Shown here in pieces: positions 26,411 through 37,188 of a stretch of 64,000 nucleotides of DNA (its first letter is position 1; each line of letters begins with the position of its first letter). The DNA is from Heterostelium album PN500 (taxonomy: Eukaryota; Evosea; Eumycetozoa; Acytosteliales; Acytosteliaceae). A program made the translations under genes and the position numbers. Where the stretch lies: NCBI RefSeq assembly GCF_000004825.1, contig NW_008805073.1, forward strand, positions 558,001 to 622,000. Reading direction: 5' to 3'. A model generated the notes under the pieces. That model was not told the origin of the DNA. It searched no databases and saw nothing but the letters and a program-made list of their open reading frames with translations.

Positions 26411-29329
26411 TTAGTTAATTTTTTGCACCCCCCAACCATATGTTGTAAATCCATTTTTGGGACAGTTGTCAGGATTGTAAATTCCGAAATGACAGTGTAG
26501 GAATGAATATCCACAATATAATGATGCTTGGAAATTTGATACGATATTTCCACCTACAACGACACCATCACTGTCAATTCCTTCATATCTTGGATCGTTG
26601 AGAATTGGCGAGACATTGAATTTGCCAAACTTGTCTTGAGTTTCTTTGATGTTGATAGAACAAGAGTATTGTTTTCCTGGAAGCACTGAGAAACAATATC
26701 TTCCATCTTTGTCTGAGTATAAATAGGAGATTGGGCAGGTTGGATTATCTTGAGAGAACAGATAGATTTTAATATTTGGGATTCCTGGTTCATTACAATC
26801 CTGAATTCCATTTCCATTGATGTCATTCCAGACTCTTCCACAATCAAATACTTCAAGAGATGGTGGGAATATCGATGTAATAGATCCAAGACCATTCGAT
26901 TTGCTGAATGTTCCTGGTGAAGCAGTTGCATTGTAAATAGAGTAGGCACGAATAGTTTTACCAGTTGTGGTATCAAACCATCTCACTGAACCTTCATACC
27001 AGAAACTATTGTCCATTCCGGTTGCGACCACTTGATTTGGACCACCTCTTGTCAAACCATATGCAACATTGTAATCGTGTCCACCAGCACCTTGATTCAC
27101 TTGGAAATAGTAACCTCCACCGATACCCATTGAATTTCCAGCATTGGATTTGGCATTGGGAAGTGCACCAGTCTTTCCTCCACACTTTCCGTTACTTTCA
27201 AGTTGGAAAGTTCCAGATGGAGTTTGACAGGCAACCAGCATGTCTGGTGAGGACATCCAAACAGTGATATCATTGGATCTATCTTTGAATCCCATGATTA
27301 ATCGACCGGCATCGTCAAAGTAGAGTGCTGCAATTTGAGGTTGAGCCATGGTGTAGTCACCACCCCATTTGTGCCATTGTGATTGTGGACACTGGTCATA
27401 TCTTCTACAACCTCTGTTGTAATTCAATGGGAATTCCAAGACATTTGTCCATGAATTTGATAGCTCATTGAATCTAACTACTTATCCAGTCAACGATGAA
27501 CCAGATTCACCAGTGCAAACACCAGCAACATAGAGTTGACCTTGGTAAATTTCCAGTGCAAATATTCTCCAGTCGGATGCATAAGTACATCCAGGATTTG
27601 GAACACTTTTCTTTAGAACATTCGAGGTGGTAGGTGTTACAGTGATAGGGATCTGAACAACTTCGTTTGTATACAAATTGGTAACATAAAGATATCTATT
27701 GGTACTTTTAAGATCACCAAGTGATACTTTACAGGTGGAACGTCCTGCTTCTTGTCCTTCTTTCAAGGCGTCATTGAAATAGTGTGTTGTAGATCCCGGG
27801 TTAATTCCAAACTTTGTGAGATCAATAAAAGTAGATACTTGAAATCCTTTGGTAATCTTGTAGATGGCAGCCATTCCAGATGGTCCGAAATCACTACTTC
27901 CTTTGTAGAAAGCAGATACATAAGTATCTTCGGTTTCAGGTCGATAGGTAATTCCAAAACATGAACCAACTTGATTGTGATATGCCAGCTTTTGAGCATA
28001 TTTCATTCCATCTCCTTTGAAGGCGTATCCAGTTGCATTGGCTGAGAATCTGACAACTGCTGGATCATTCTGATAGGTTCCAGCTCTACTTCCTTTGACG
28101 AAACATGTTGTGGCGAAAGCAGATGGATTATTGGAATTTTGATTACCTTGATTTAAGATTTTTTGAGAAACACCGACTTGAATATTATCACTTCCATTAA
28201 TAAAGTTAAAAGGATCTGGTCCTGTTGAGATAATATTCTGACCAACGAATTCAATACGATACTTGATGGTTGATACCAATCCATTGCAACTCCATCTTCC
28301 ATCGGATCCAGTTGTGGTAGTCCAAACAAGATATCCATAGATTGGTGAATAAATATTGACTTTGATTCCGTCAGCTGGCTTATCAGTGGCATCGAAATAA
28401 CCATCGAAATCGAGATCGATATAAATCATTCCAGAACAAGTGGAAGTTCCAATCGGTGTCAATCCATAGTTTCCAAGATAGTTGATTGTTGGTGACTTGA
28501 CTTGATCATTGGAGGTGGATGCAACAGAATCTTTGTTGGCAATGGCGAAAGGACCGATGGTACCTGGATTATAAACTCCATTGATTCCACTGATGATCTT
28601 AATTGTATAGAATCCTTCACGAATGTTTTCAAAAACAAATCGACCATTTGCATCTGTTGTGGAGTAGGGCACTGGATTTCCATTGGCATCAGTCAAAGTA
28701 TTACCATTTCGATCTAAAAGTGCAATGGTGAGACCTGCATACCAATTCTCGTTGGAATCTTTCAATCCATTACCAGAGGAATCGATAAACATGTTTCCAA
28801 CAACAGCGATTCCTTTGTATGCGGGTGGTGGTGTTGGCATTGGACCGAGATCAACATTGATCTTCAAACAAAGTGTACTGATACCGGCAGCAATTCCTTT
28901 TTTGTATAACATTGGTACTTGAAAAGCAGTGAGATTTTCAATGACAGTTGTTCCTCTGTATCCTTCGTTGGGATTGGCATCTCTGACACACACCTTTCCT
29001 TGTGGACAAGTCAATGAGATATCATAAGATCCAAAGAGATAATCTGCAGGATTGGTGAGATTGAATCGATAGAGAGTTCTCTCCATCAAACCATCCCAGA
29101 AGAAAGCACCATTTGATTGAGTGTACTGATTTTGTAAAATCGTTCCTTGGTAGTCAACAGCGTTATCCAAAGGCACGATATAGACACCACCAACTCCATA
29201 CTCTCCATTGTTCACACTATTTACGTTGGTGTCATTGAAACACATTCCTCTCAGAACAAGAACCCTTCCTTGATACTGCTGGCATCTTACAACCGACAAG
29301 AAAAGTAATACCAAAAATATTAACTTCAT
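26411..29329 (-). CDS. Secreted SdrD/CnaB-repeat (colossin-like) protein with in-frame TAA
   Basis: One continuous reading frame of 973 codons holds a single internal TAA at 27484-27482, dividing it into 615 codons and a 356-codon remainder that keeps the same domain style. Signal peptide: MKLIFLVLLFLSVVRC (1-16). SdrD B-like domains: FIDSSGNGLKDSNENW (about 180), MIYIDLDFDGYFDATDKP (about 305) and near the C-terminus VWNDINGNGIQDCNEPG, each with Asp/Asn calcium-type loops. Between them lies a large beta-rich, probably propeller, region that spans the stop. Colossins and related dictyostelid surface or matrix proteins share these domains, which resemble bacterial adhesin repeats. The stop could be a sequencing error, a true recent nonsense mutation or read-through; I cannot decide. 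No intron with GT-AG ends removes it. Confidence 0.82.
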
Positions 29330-30200
29330 CTGATTTTAATAATAATTTCAGATAATATATTAGTTTCAAATAAAAATTATCTTTTTAATTTTATTATTTA
29401 CTTACCTTACTTGTTAATTATTGATGAATTAAATCAATCTTTTACTATTGAAATATAATATATAAACATAATAATCCAAGCATATCAGAATAAAGTTCTG
29501 ATACAAACCAGTGGTGTCACTTTTAATTTATCTATATAATATTGATATCATTATATATACTATGAACATTGAATTAAGTGTGAATGTATTGTTGCAGTTT
29601 GTAAATTATTGGTAAGTGTGAGTTTTTTCATGTTCTCACGCATAAGAAACAATCATGATTTATTACTGCATAATGAAGATGATTGCAGATTTATAAATAT
29701 TATCAAATGAATTATTTCACCACCTTTTTATCTCATCCAATTTCGTAAAACTACGATTATGAATTAATTAATATGGATGGTACTATGATTCTTCTTTAGT
29801 TGTTACTTTACTATATGAGTTGATGTTATTAGCACTTACTTCTTTCATTGTAGTGTGTGTGACTATTATTGAATAGGTTTTGGTTTGATAGTTTGTTTAT
29901 ATCATGATTTTACATATCGTTAATGTCGAGTACTCAGATGGTGAAGAAACTATAGCAATAGACATCACCAACACAAAAAAATCTAGTCTCTTTGATCACT
30001 CTTTAAAATATCCACAATACAAACAACCAATGTGAGGGTACTGATGTTTTCTTTCTATTATTAACTATAGTAGTAGTAGTAGTATGTTGTATTTTGTGTT
30101 AATATAAATATCACTTTTGCTATCTTAATAGTAATGATTGGCATGATATTTATTTATTTATTTTTTTGTACAATAATATATTTTTTTAAATAAATAGTAA
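29330..30200. other. Intergenic between SdrD-domain gene and C9orf72 homologue
   Basis: AT-rich, promoter side of the SdrD-domain gene and 3' side of the next. Contains a perfect 8-bp hairpin at 29483-29503 (arms tatcagaa/ttctgata, 5-base loop). I see no gene. Confidence 0.55.
29483..29503. repeat. Short perfect inverted repeat upstream of SdrD-domain gene
   Basis: Arms tatcagaa and ttctgata are exactly complementary around a 5-base loop, about 155 bases before the ATG at 29329. It could be a protein-binding palindrome; nothing else supports this. Confidence 0.3.
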
Positions 30201-32387
30201 TTAGAAAGCATCGAAAGCTGCAAAAGCACTCTGTTATTTTTTTAAAACAAAAAAAATAAAGTTAATAAATGGTTGTAGATCAGTTAAAAAAGGTGTAGTA
30301 GCATTAATAACAAACCTCTATTGTATCTTTTCTAATTGCAGTCATAAAGAGATTCAGTTGAATCTTTTCAGCAATTCCAAAAAGTAAAATTGGCATCAGA
30401 CTCAAAAGGTAAATTCATAAATGATTTCAGTATCTTTTGATAATTCAATCCTCCATTTGCACTGTCAATTTGAAATCATATCGCAATATTTGAATTAGAT
30501 TCAGATTATTTTTGAGTAGAATATAGTATCTTAACTAAATACATACGTTGATTGAATAAAAGAATGTGCCAGCGATGCCTTTCTCATTAGTAATCGCATA
30601 TAATATACAAGGTAGAGCTCTCTATAGCATATGGGAAGATTGAACACCTCTGTGAGCATTTGTTTGATGAACGACGATGGTTGTATGAATGGTGATAGTA
30701 TTTTAGTATCTTTTACACTAGATGATGTGATGAGTTGAAAAGATAAAGTTATAGTTATTTGGTTAGTTAAATATAGTTGATTAATCTATAATTCTTCGAT
30801 ACATTACTTTTTCTGATAAATATAAATGCTTATGAGGAAATCCTCACGAAAGCTGGTGTATTGATGCAAGATATCGGTGTGATACACCTCTTTCTTGTCG
30901 ATATCAATGACAGTTGTAGGTCTGAGTGAGAAAGGCAGTTTCTCTTCGATCTGCTTCTGATTGACATTCAATAGACCCTGTATCATTAGATCGGGTATCA
31001 TTTCATGAGAGTTTACCTGTCTCGACGAGATATAACGTTCATTCGGTGTCAAAAACATATAGAGTGTATCCAACCATTTCAGTATCTCGTTGTGCTTACT
31101 TCCAACAACAACGGTTGATCCCGATGTAATAATATGTGATGATATAGCTCTGTTATATTAATAATAAAGAATAGAATCATTTGAACTTAATTAATTTTAC
31201 AAACTACAATTTAAAAACAAATAAATAACAAACAAATCAACATACCTAATAAGAAAATCTAGATCTTGAGGTGAAGGAATAGTACTTTCCATAAAGAACG
31301 TCTGTGATATCTCTACGTGTGGATAACCAGCACTGAAAACATTCTCAAAGTTTGTACAAACATTGATTAACTCTGAAGTGAACGATGCTAAATCATATTC
31401 CTTGAAAGTAGTAGTAGTAGTTGTAGTAGTAGATAACAACAATCATCAGATTAATATTGATTGATTATAATGATTATAATGATTATAATGATTATACATA
31501 CATTCTTACTGTAGTTTCTTAGAATGAAAGATGCCAATATAGATAGTCTGTCAGAGACAAAGTCATGACAGTGTTGGTAGATGCTCAGCTTTGTGAGATC
31601 CAGATAGATCGAGAGCGACAGCTTTGTCAGTTTATCGTGGTATTTCGCGTTGAAGATGATCGATGGTATCATTACATTCTGCTCTGGATAGATGTTGAAT
31701 CTCATCTCTTCCGATTCCATCGATATGTCATATCCACACAGCGTTTGTCTAGCGATGAAAGTCAGGAAATCCGGTGCAAGATTCATCGAATTCTCATTGC
31801 CAGTCGACCAAAACTGCTCGATACCAGGTCCTGCAGTGTCATGCCAAATCGATAGTTGCGCACCACAAACCACCTGAGGTGGATGACCATCCATCAAATT
31901 CAATTTTATAGGTGCTGTATTCTGTTTTGACAATGGGAATTCTATATATATATATAATATATATAAGTTAACTCGATTGTTATGGCATGATTATGCTCTT
32001 TTTTTTTTTTAATATATATTTTTATACATTACTCTTGCCTTTACCAGGAGGGATTGGATGTGTTGGTTTGGGTGTCTGTTTCAATTCATCGTAGACACGC
32101 TTGAAGATGTTAGGATTCTTGAGGAATTCATTTGGGTTGTTGTTGGTATGAGTGATCGGTTGTAATTGAAAGTATTGTTGTTGAAGTTGTTGCTGTTGCA
32201 GTTGTTGTTGATGATGATTATCACGTCCCGATGCAGATCCGAAACTAGTTGTAAGTGTACCACCGCTATTATGATTGTTATGATGTGTATTACTATTGCC
32301 ACTACTCTGAAGATTACCATGATTATAGTTCATACTGCCACCGTTCTGCGATGAACCACTTCCACCCAAACTATTATCATTCATCAT
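30201..32387 (-). CDS. C9orf72 homologue (DENN-family)
   Basis: Rebuilt from seven exons: 32387-32033, 31941-31502, 31400-31246, 31149-30808, 30717-30547, 30400-30316, 30230-30201 (525 codons). After an Asn/Gln/His-rich leader (about 1-110) the protein follows human C9orf72 in order: AQLSIWHDTAGPGIEQFW (human AYWDNILGPRVRHIW), DRLSILASFILR (DRLTHIIRKGRIW), AISSHIITSGSTVVVGS (AISSHLQTCGCSVVVGS), MFLTPNERYIS (LFLTPAERKCS), LMIQGLLN (LFVQGLLK), LPFSLRPTTVIDIDKKEV (PTTHIDVDVNTV), and near the end LLFGIAEKIQ (MALAEKIK). C9orf72 works with SMCR8 in a GAP complex for small GTPases in autophagy and lysosome control. A rival splice acceptor at 30462-30463 would add 20 residues that also align but leads to an early stop. 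Confidence 0.85.
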
Positions 32388-32735: not shown

Positions 32736-35700
32736 TTATCTTCTTGCCTTTTTGGTTAAGTAAACAAATGCAAGGATAAAGAGAATGGATGATGCCCAAT
32801 AAGCAGCGAGAATACCAAAGTTTCTCCAACGATTTTCGTAATGCCAGTCCAAAGTTTCATAGTATTCTTCACCGTTTTTGTAGATGCAATATCCACATTC
32901 GGTTTGATTGTTATTGATTGCTACTACGTAACCTGGTGCATTCTGGGTGAATTGCTCGGTGTATTGCTCACAGGTTTGTCCGTCTGGTGATGTGAATCTA
33001 ATGAGATCCTCTGGTTTACAGATGACTTCCACTGGCTTTAAGATGGTAGTGACAATACCTTCCAATAGGTATTTTGCTGGGTTGAGATTGTACATAAAAC
33101 GGAAGAACGACGGTAGCAATGAATATGGAATTTGCACACCACAGAACAAGAAGATGTAGAATAAAAGAATTGGCAGTGCTGCAATGGAGATTGCAATGTC
33201 AAAACAAGCTGCTCCCAATGCCTGACTGAACGAGACAATGTAGAGTCCAAACATCGAGTGAATCAGCCAGAAGTAGAATCCGGTGATCGCATCGAATTGG
33301 AGACCGGCAGTCCAGTAGGATGCAAAGAAGAAAAGCGTTGTTGAGATGATGACATACGGCATTTCAACGGCGACGATCGCCAATGAGAAACTGTGCCATG
33401 AGTAATATTTGCTGGCGTAATCACGCTTGAAGAAACTCTTTTGAATAAAGAATTGCGGTAATACCAAGTAAATCAACAATACGCCGAGAACCATACCTTC
33501 CCACAAGAAGAATATTCTCTGGTTCATATCGGACGATGAGTTTTCCAATTGATAAAAGGTGAATCCAATAATCAGACCGGAAACCAACGATTGTGCAAAC
33601 GATCCAATCGTATATTGTGGATCTCTCCACCAGATTAAATTGAAACGTTTGTAGACTTCAATGAATTGTGTGAGGAATCCAGTGGCGAATTCTCTGGGTG
33701 GCTTGGAATTGTTTGGATCTTCGTCGACATGACTAATATACTTGACGAGTTCCTCTCTGGTTTTCAAGAGTTGAAGTTCCAATTTCACTTGGTTGTACTC
33801 GGTGGAACTCTTCCAGATTGCACTCCAATCGAAATCGGTCTTTCCATGTACACCGGCACCAATAACATCGAGAATATATTCAGCTGGGTTTTCAGTTGAA
33901 TCATATGCACGTCCACCATTCTTTGTGAAATAATTGACAAGAGTTTGAGAGTTTTCACCGATATCACCGAAATAAACGGTTTTTCCACCTTTGGCCAACA
34001 AGAGAATACGGTCGAAATGCTCGAATAATACTGGCGATGGTTGATGAATTGTACAGACCAATGGCATTCCAGCATCGGCAAGCTTACGAATGAATTTAAT
34101 GATGTTGTATGACGATTGTGCATCGAGACCAGAAGTTGGCTCGTCCAAGAAAAGAATATGTGGTTTGGCAACTAGCTCCAATCCAATGGTGAGACGCTTT
34201 CTCTCCTCGACAGAGATACCAACTCCATTTTCCAAACTTCCAACCAGTGCATCACCCAAATGCTTCATTTCCATCATTTCAAGAACACGCTCGACATATT
34301 CGTATTTCTCTGAGAGTGGTACCTCTGGCTCTTGTCTGAGCTTTGCTGAGAATTGCAATGCCTCACGAACAGTCAAGCCTGGATTATGAACATCCATTTG
34401 CTCGACATATCCAGTGATACGCTCAAAGTCAATGGCGAGTGGTTTACCATTTAAGGGCAGAGTCACCTTTGACTATTCCAATGGTTTTACGCTTGGCCAA
34501 AACGTCCAACAGGGTTGTCTTACCGGCACCTGATGATCCCATTAAAGCAGTCATTTGTCCAGGTTTAATCCAACCGAGAACATCATCGAGTAACAACTTT
34601 TCACCGGCACCTGGAATGGGGACTGTATAATTGATATTCTCCCAAGTGAAGATTCCACCTTGAATCTTGAGATTGTCTTTCATGTTGGTGGTAGCTTGTT
34701 CAACGATTTTATTTTGATTACGCTCCTCTTCGACATCGTTCAACTTTGGTGCTTTTCCTTTTTTGTAGACTTTCTGAGTGTATCCACCGGCAGTCCAATC
34801 AAAGAATTCAACAGCGAAAACATTCAACAAGATATAGAACAACCAGAGAAGATAGACAACTACGACATAGAGTGCTCTTTGTTCAACTTTGAAATCGAAC
34901 GAGTCGAGAATATAAGATTCACCATTGACACTCAAATGACCTTCAACAGCACCTGGAACTGGACAAATACGATGTGCAGAGTCAGTGTAGCTTAGACCGG
35001 AAGGAATTGCTGATTGTTCGCATGAGAAATCGATTGATTTGAATTCATTTGTCATTAGAGCACGGAATGCATAGGACAATGGTGAGACGTGGTAAAACCA
35101 TTTGAACCATGGATGCATTTTAGTAACTGCTTGGGTATAACCAAAATAATTTACCATGAAGATGAAAACGAAATTCATTACATTCTGACCGGCAAACAAA
35201 GTTGGAGTGAAATTTCCAAAGGCACGGTACAACGAACCACAAGCCAGAGTGACACCGACCAGAGTAAATGCGAAAATAAAGAACTTTCCAGCATTGTAAT
35301 CAAGACCATACATAAAATAGGCAATGATTGCATGAAGAAAAGATTGAGCGAAAGCGAATGGAATGTCAACGAGCACCTGGGAAATAAGGAATGCCGACGG
35401 TCTGTAGAGAGCATAGGATTTGTGTTTCTGAAGGATACGACGACCATTGAATGTCGCATGAAGATTACCACTGGTCAAAATACACATGAATATGATTGAG
35501 GAGAAAATGGCACCTCCTCTTGTGAAAAGTCCATCGGTTGTTCTGTCCATCTGGAAATAGACACCACCGAGAATAAATGAATTAATGAAAACAGTGAGGA
35601 AAAGCGATACGATAGTGAATTTATCACCGTAACTCAATTGCATCTGACGTTTGGTGAGTGCAATACATTGAGTTATGAAACTGGCACTGTATGGAGAACG

Positions 35701-37188
35701 CTTACCTGCGGTCTTACTCTTTTCATTACGAATCTGCTGGATAAAGTCAGAGGATGGCTGCTCCTTCTCAACGGTTGCTTCGTAGATCTGTTGCGATTCC
35801 ATCTGTTGTTTGAAGAGAAAAGAGTTTTTCCAGGCGGTTTCTAAGTCTCCCGATGTCTCTGGAACACGACCTTCGAAACCGGGACGAACAATTCGCTCCT
35901 GTGGATTGGAGATTCCAGTGAGGAAATCAGCGATCGATTTTCTTGGTTCACAATCGAATCCGAGATCCAAGAAATATTGTTTGGCAAGTCCGATTGGACC
36001 AAAATATATACAACGACCTTTGTCCAAAACCATTACCTTATCGAAAAGATTGTAAATCGAGTCAGATGCCTGATAGAATGAAGCGATGGTTGTCTTGTGA
36101 AGAGTATCAGACATGATACGCAATGATTTGGCATAGTCCAATGCAGATGCAGCGTCCAATCCACGAGTTGAACTATCCCAACAGGTAATACTTGAACCTG
36201 AAACCATTGCTTCGGCAATAGTCATTCTCTTTCTTTCACCACCAGATAAACCTCTAACAAATTCATTTCCAACAACCTGACAATGAATAAAATTAGTCAA
36301 ATTTGTCAACTTTTTAAAATTTAATAGTATTTACTTACTGTATTTCTTTGATTTACTAAACCATACATTCCAACTAAAAGATCATATATTTTCGATCTGA
36401 AATTTGCCTTTGTTTCTTCTGGTAGACGTTGGCTTGGTGTTTTAAGTTTCAATGTGAAATCGAGTGTCTCGAAAACTGTGAGTGTCGGGAAATGGATATC
36501 TTCTTCCGGTGTATAGATGGCTTCACCTCTATATCTTCCAAATTCATCGGCTGGAATATTTCCATATTTAAGTTCACCTGATACGTCGATATATGATTCG
36601 GTTTGATTGGATATCACTCTCAGTAGAGTAGAACAACCAGACCCTGGACGACCCAAAACCAATAACATTTTTCCATCTTCAATAAAACCATTTACACTAT
36701 TTAAAATATTAAATGTATTTATTTCTCTATTTTTAAAACTAATATAATTATTTTTGTTAGATTGATTTGATATAGCTAATTTAGTTAAATTATTAATAAT
36801 TTTACACATACAAATTAAATGGATTTAAGGCAGATAATAAAAATTTGAATGGTGTGAAATTGTCGGCTATAACAGAACTATCGGCACCCTGGCCAACTAC
36901 AGTTAGATTCTTGAATGAAACTCCCATTTTCTTTGGTTTTCCACCGATTTCCAAGTTCATTCTCTGAGAGTTTTCAAAGTATTTACGGAGTTTGAAGTCA
37001 TCTTCATTCTCTTTATATTTTTCACCAAGTTCAATATCTACTTCACCACCAAAATCAGTTACAATCTCTCTAAATAACTTTGATCGGCTAAGTTCTCTGA
37101 CTTGATTTTCCAACTCTTGAAACAATTTATTTCCATCTTCAACAGATGGTGATTCATCGATCGCGATATTAATATCTTGATTAGACAT
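32736..37188 (-). CDS. Full-size ABCG (PDR-type) transporter with a one-base frame break
   Basis: Exons 37188-36812, 36696-36339 and 36276-32736, about 1,424 residues. Layout is NBD1-TMD1-NBD2-TMD2, the inverted order of the fungal-type pleiotropic drug resistance subfamily. NBD1: Walker [10 protein letters not shown] with Cys in place of Lys, signature [13 protein letters not shown], Walker [19 protein letters not shown]2: canonical Walker [10 protein letters not shown], weak signature [11 protein letters not shown], Walker [16 protein letters not shown]. This asymmetry is normal for PDR pumps and leaves one working ATP site. Each TMD has about six hydrophobic spans. In dictyostelids these belong to the abcG set; substrate unknown, plasma membrane likely. 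The frame jumps by one base at the GGG run 34455-34457 (plus strand), just after NBD2 Walker A; removing one base restores the family string [15 protein letters not shown]. Confidence 0.9.

Follow-up and report, generated by a model that had tools for sequence, protein, structure and literature searches.

A C9orf72 gene in a dictyostelid, probably Heterostelium pallidum, and candidate partner genes in the same genome

A C9orf72 gene in the window

We analyzed a 64,000-nucleotide stretch of the social amoeba genome listed in RefSeq as Heterostelium album PN500 (contig NW_008805073.1, positions 558,001 to 622,000), hereafter called the window and numbered from its first letter. The window contains a multi-exon gene on the minus strand, at 32387-30201, whose identity as C9orf72 is shown by profile and structure-database searches and whose function is predicted from homology. 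We identify the locus with high confidence as the orthologue of C9orf72 in a dictyostelid that is probably Heterostelium (Polysphondylium) pallidum. An earlier note on this DNA had proposed a C9orf72 homologue at 30201 to 32387 without naming a strand, and the interval is borne out exactly by an ATG at 32387 and a last possible stop ending at 30201.

The identification is carried by the 483-amino-acid product of exons 1-5. This product matches the Pfam C9orf72-like family (PF15019) at 117.6 bits (E 9e-34), against a family cut-off of 27, and its first match in the PDB is human C9orf72 (6lt0_C, E 2.1e-22), with human residues 24-410 aligned; the homology claimed earlier is thus confirmed by both searches. 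The frame of exon 4 alone reaches 86.9 bits (E 2.1e-24) against PF15019, and the scores of exon 4 and of the joined exons 1-5 exceed chance. All three motifs cited in the earlier note (VVVGS, FLTPNER, and IDIDKKEV) are present, and all lie in exon 4 (31149-30808). The exon 2 frame alone scores 18.3 bits (E 0.002), under the cut-off of 27; the frames of exons 1 and 3 scanned alone have no Pfam match, and that of exon 5 alone has no PF15019 match, as the model stops before that part, its one Pfam hit being an unrelated model that stays under its own cut-off (E 0.13). Together, the alignments show a protein in which the longin and DENN regions of C9orf72 follow a low-complexity N terminus.

Both searches were also read for other DENN families. 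At a threshold of E 10, the Pfam scan of the 483-residue product returned C9orf72-like only, leaving PF11704, PF16692, and the FNIP models unmatched, although HMMER filters discard most matches above about E 0.1 even at that setting. The PDB search, taken up to E 10, contained no FLCN, FNIP, SMCR8, or other DENN chain among the seven sequences listed, which comprise two C9orf72 constructs and five unrelated sequences starting at E 0.15. We therefore rejected assignment of the product to another DENN family, since C9orf72 alone of the DENN proteins was returned; the better-scoring family for which the earlier note had suggested looking did not appear in Pfam or the PDB. Across the entire genome assembly of 32.9 Mb (39 contigs; four candidates scored), C9orf72 is a single match at E <= 0.001. 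According to the available text of PMC3521125, the gene is single copy in most eukaryotes that have it, a pattern that the one C9orf72 of this amoeba follows.

Exon structure

Splice sites and phase support the model across exons 1-5. All five introns are GT-AG, measure 85-103 bp, and agree in phase, and their G+C content is 17-24% versus 34-42% in the exons (about 33% in the window). The spliced exons form 1451 nt free of stops. The longin domain, the DENN region, and the first dDENN helices are contained in these open exons, and the last conserved block requires either a frame step or a different acceptor. The features are as follows.

Exon 1, 32045..32387, minus strand: ATG, a low-complexity N-terminal extension of about 114 residues rich in Q, N, H, and S, then PTHPIPP; donor GTAAAG (sequence and phase).
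Exon 2, 31502..31941, minus strand: longin domain including SIWHDTAGPGIEQFW, aligned to human residues 31-45 (GT-AG, phase, human C9orf72 alignment).
Exon 3, 31246..31400, minus strand: linker and start of the DENN region, EYDLASF...DLDFLIR (GT-AG, phase, human C9orf72 alignment).
Exon 4, 30808..31149, minus strand: the most conserved block, AISSHI...VVVGS...FLTPNER...VIDIDKKEV (PF15019 and PDB alignment).
Exon 5, 30547..30717, minus strand: dDENN helices, LSPFIQPSSFIKQMLTEVF...LLMRKASLAHSFIQS (GT-AG, phase, alignment up to human residue 410).
Exon 6, first part, 30379..30461, minus strand: frame of NGGLNYQKILKSFMNLPFESDANFT (acceptor TTGACAG ending at 30462, phase fitting exon 5, human alignment).
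Exon 6, second part, 30316..30391, minus strand: a different frame, GIAEKIQLNLFMTAIRKDTIE (AEKI in the human alignment, which ends at residue 459).
Putative exon 7, 30201..30230, minus strand: SAFAAFDAF and stop, nine codons (85-bp intron at 30315-30231, weak donor GTTTGT, phase).

The frame step at the 3' end

Downstream of exon 5 the reading frame is interrupted. Joining exon 5 to the acceptor ending at 30462 preserves phase and yields TANGGLNYQKILKSFMNLPFESDANFT, followed by FWNC and a stop. The frame of exon 6 in the assembly thus ends right after ANFTFWNC, and the C9orf72-like block GIAEKIQLNLFMTAIRKDTIE, here called the AEKI block, lies in another frame, with the step falling within a T-rich stretch at about 30391-30379. 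With both parts of exon 6 joined by X, the PDB alignment with human C9orf72 extends to residue 459 at E 8.1e-27; that query also had its low-complexity N terminus trimmed, so the improvement over 2.1e-22 is not attributable to the step alone. The 22-residue tail carrying the AEKI piece, too short to decide the matter, matched nothing in the PDB when searched by itself. An intron inside exon 6 bridging the step was rejected, as we found no GT-AG candidate of 20 bp or more.

Two observations weigh against an intact gene model: the C-terminal end is broken in the present assembly, and putative exon 7, supported by splice signals and phase, has no homology support. Exon 7 falls outside the reach of the PDB alignment with human C9orf72, and no homology was seen for it. 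The earlier note had traced the human protein from its longin-like part to its C-terminal helix through seven small exons. Exons 1-5 sustain this claim over human residues 24-410, residue 459 is reached only by reading across the step, and a count of seven exons is plausible, with a 3' end less clean than claimed.

Most likely, the gene has not been lost, and the break in exon 6 reflects either a single-base error in the assembly or a choice of splice site. We tentatively favor an assembly error because a second frame step occurs in a conserved gene about 4 kb away. This gene encodes an ABC transporter on the minus strand at 32736-36330, with matches to ABC2_membrane, PDR_CDR, and ABC_tran, and near 34460 it breaks into two overlapping frames. 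The split falls within a nucleotide-binding domain, placing ABC_tran profile positions 4-35 in one frame and 56-137 in the other. The gene is otherwise long, open, and conserved, and its frame step is probably an error of assembly.

A splicing solution free of any frame error would join exon 5 to a downstream acceptor with the exon starting at 30400, at a cost of about 20 residues. This acceptor is in frame and leads without stops into the AEKI block, a short T/C-rich run stands upstream of it, and it retains the seven exons counted earlier. Nevertheless, the omitted part, KILKSFMNLPFESDAN, can itself be aligned to the human protein at fair posterior scores, and of the two acceptors TTGACAG, ending at 30462, seems the better; we consider this solution rather unlikely. 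Less credible still is a step that is real and fixed, such that the gene is decaying or the protein ends early without its last dDENN helices. The stop just past ANFTFWNC, the displaced AEKI block, and the lack of a GT-AG intron of at least 20 bp across the step would all fit this account. However, exons 1-5 stay open over 1451 nt, their splice sites are intact, and they are strongly conserved, which is unlike decay; the AEKI block still matches the human protein past the step, though it is too short for detection alone; and the conserved ABC transporter shows a comparable step. We consider true decay or early termination improbable and retain the assembly error as the favored reading.

SMCR8 and related longin-DENN genes in the same genome

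A search of the genome with the Folliculin model identified two loci, C3:2396541 and C3:230283. The first is FLCN, which matches PDB folliculin at E 5.4e-42 and both PF11704 and PF16692. The second scores 17.8 bits, under the cut-off of the Folliculin model, and its longin exon matches human SMCR8 in the PDB at E 2.7e-20, with no chain of any other protein up to E 10. An arginine in this exon aligns to human Arg147, and a downstream open reading frame (L005:2806-3501) matches SMCR8 residues 697-790 at E 4.6e-9. The next open reading frame (L005:3549-4613) returned no SMCR8 chain in the PDB search, only unrelated proteins at E 0.07 or worse. On these alignments, we assign the C3:230283 locus to SMCR8, with a conserved, predicted catalytic arginine. 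The gene spans about 756-3501 of L005 (C3:229000-238000), bringing the longin and C-terminal exons together in one locus with long low-complexity inserts.

FNIP is located at C2:53724 and NPR2 at C9:1636213. The FLCN and FNIP genes occupy separate loci, and both paired longin-DENN systems coexist in this genome. The C9orf72 protein shares with FLCN-FNIP the paired longin-DENN architecture, and both of those genes are present in the same genome, but they lie at separate loci and the window protein matches neither family. A longin-DENN relationship is common to FNIP, FLCN, SMCR8, and NPRL as well, as stated in the available text of PMC3521125, yet it is extremely improbable that the window locus encodes one of these instead, since within the longin-DENN group its matches in Pfam and the PDB are to C9orf72 models and chains only, and FLCN, FNIP, SMCR8, and NPR2 each have their own locus.

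A probable WDR41

The genome was searched for WDR41 with a 424-residue query, which returned 40 WD40 places. One of them, C10:1929908-1931280, matched the query twice, close to its start (20-88) and close to its end (362-407). The candidate occupies positions 1105-2931 of L019 (C10:1928500-1933000), where five exons splice in phase to encode 486 amino acids. In Pfam, the spliced product scores highest with the WDR41 family (PF25178; 90.8 bits, cut-off 50), followed by WDR3_1st at 89.4, which is under its own cut-off of 154. In the PDB, the C-terminal two-thirds of the candidate match human WDR41 chains at 4.4e-8 (second) and 2.1e-7 (eleventh), among many G-beta chains.

Several results weigh against this assignment. 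When the pieces of the candidate are joined with X, the order of the two Pfam families is reversed (PF25178 87.6 versus WDR3_1st 88.0 bits). The top PDB match of the C-terminal two-thirds, at 8.5e-10, is a construct that carries the annotation G-beta-1 and is matched over several stretches. A PDB search with the joined pieces, in which the generic N-terminal blades predominate, shows no WDR41 chain among the 60 best of 506 matches. An exon-by-exon genome search with PF25178 gives the two places of the candidate 35.3 and 26 bits, below the cut-off, and 8 of the 40 places listed by this search pass that cut-off when taken with their in-frame neighbors, all of them other than the candidate.

Six other WD40 loci were scanned beside the candidate, five of the eight that pass (L020, L021, L024, L027, and L028) and one that does not (L023), and in each of these six, families other than PF25178 scored higher; outside the scan are the passing places C6:233337 (65.4 bits), C38:334586, and C9:1351334, as well as L025, L026, and L029. 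PF25178 also gives matches, under its cut-off, in 2 of 14 control genomes. A second locus that we weighed as WDR41, on C12 (query 3-49 and 283-317; L027), was rejected because it carries a PFU domain, which identifies a PLAA-type protein. We conclude that the C10 locus is probably WDR41. The search for both partners that the earlier note had proposed therefore recovers SMCR8 with a conserved arginine, together with a WDR41 that is probable only.

Predicted mechanism and comparison with the mammalian complex

In mammals, C9orf72, SMCR8, and WDR41 form a complex in which ARF1 sits on both longin domains and SMCR8 Arg147 serves as the catalytic finger, as described in the available text of PMC8213707. 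Judging from the genes found here, the product of the window locus is most likely the C9orf72 subunit of an Arf/Rab GTPase-activating protein (GAP) complex, and we consider a GAP-complex mechanism a fairly likely one for the amoeba protein. The amoeba C9orf72 would bind SMCR8 through its DENN region, and the paired longin domains would bind an Arf- or Rab-type small GTPase, whose GTP hydrolysis would be accelerated by the SMCR8 arginine. WDR41 may tether the complex to endolysosomes, where it would act in membrane traffic or autophagy, as in mammals.

The aligned residues bear on the GTPase contact. The same text (PMC8213707) reports that a W33G/D34K double mutant of human C9orf72 nearly abolishes ARF1 GAP activity. 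Human Trp33 is aligned to a Trp in the amoeba protein. On the other side of the argument, human Asp34 is aligned to a His, with an Asp one position on, and human Ile71 to an Asp, with an Ile adjacent; on this alignment, therefore, the contact is only partly kept.

Compared with human C9orf72 (PDB 6lt0 chain C, 6v4u, and 7mge), the amoeba protein aligns over residues 24-410, or to 459 by read-through, and shares the VVVGS, FLTP.ER, and ID.D..V motifs and Trp33. It differs in its N-terminal low-complexity extension of about 114 residues, in loops that are shorter at several places in the alignment, in an unaligned C terminus past the AEKI block, and in lacking D34 and I71 at the same positions. 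Relative to the C9orf72-SMCR8-WDR41 complex as presented in the available text of PMC8213707 and PMC8336837, this genome has a counterpart, or a probable one, for all three subunits, and the SMCR8 arginine is kept. Unlike the mammalian complex, that of the amoeba is proposed here from its genes, and both its assembly and its GAP activity are predictions.

Evolutionary and practical context

Loss of the C9orf72 protein is one proposed contributor to amyotrophic lateral sclerosis and frontotemporal dementia, and the basic biochemical job of the protein is still debated. Deletion and rescue experiments could be done cleanly in a social amoeba that has one C9orf72, SMCR8, a WDR41 candidate, and FLCN and FNIP as separate genes. 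Gene editing has been reported for H. pallidum (available text of PMC13046832).

Among DENN proteins, the C9ORF72 clade was traced to the eukaryotic ancestor by Zhang et al. 2012 (PMC3521125). In the text available, the abbreviation list of that study includes Polysphondylium pallidum and two Dictyostelium species, one of them D. purpureum. The portions available of the literature, mostly open-access, name no dictyostelid WDR41 and contain for SMCR8 only a general FLCN-SMCR8 statement (PMC3521125); in those of PMC8213707 and PMC11405869, Dictyostelium occurs in the reference list only. The annotation of C9orf72 in the window is correct, useful, and rather ordinary, and it leaves the known history of the family unchanged. 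We lean toward the view that the ancestor shared by Amoebozoa and animals already had the whole C9orf72-SMCR8-WDR41 complex, including WDR41 and the arginine finger. If this is true, a dictyostelid in which FLCN-FNIP is retained as well would provide a simple cell, open to gene editing, for telling what the complex originally did apart from what FLCN-FNIP does.

Other observations in the window

On the minus strand at 27482-29335, the window encodes a protein with SdrD B-like repeats (PF17210, three stretches). An open reading frame at 26411-27481 follows it directly in the same frame, with one stop codon between the two.
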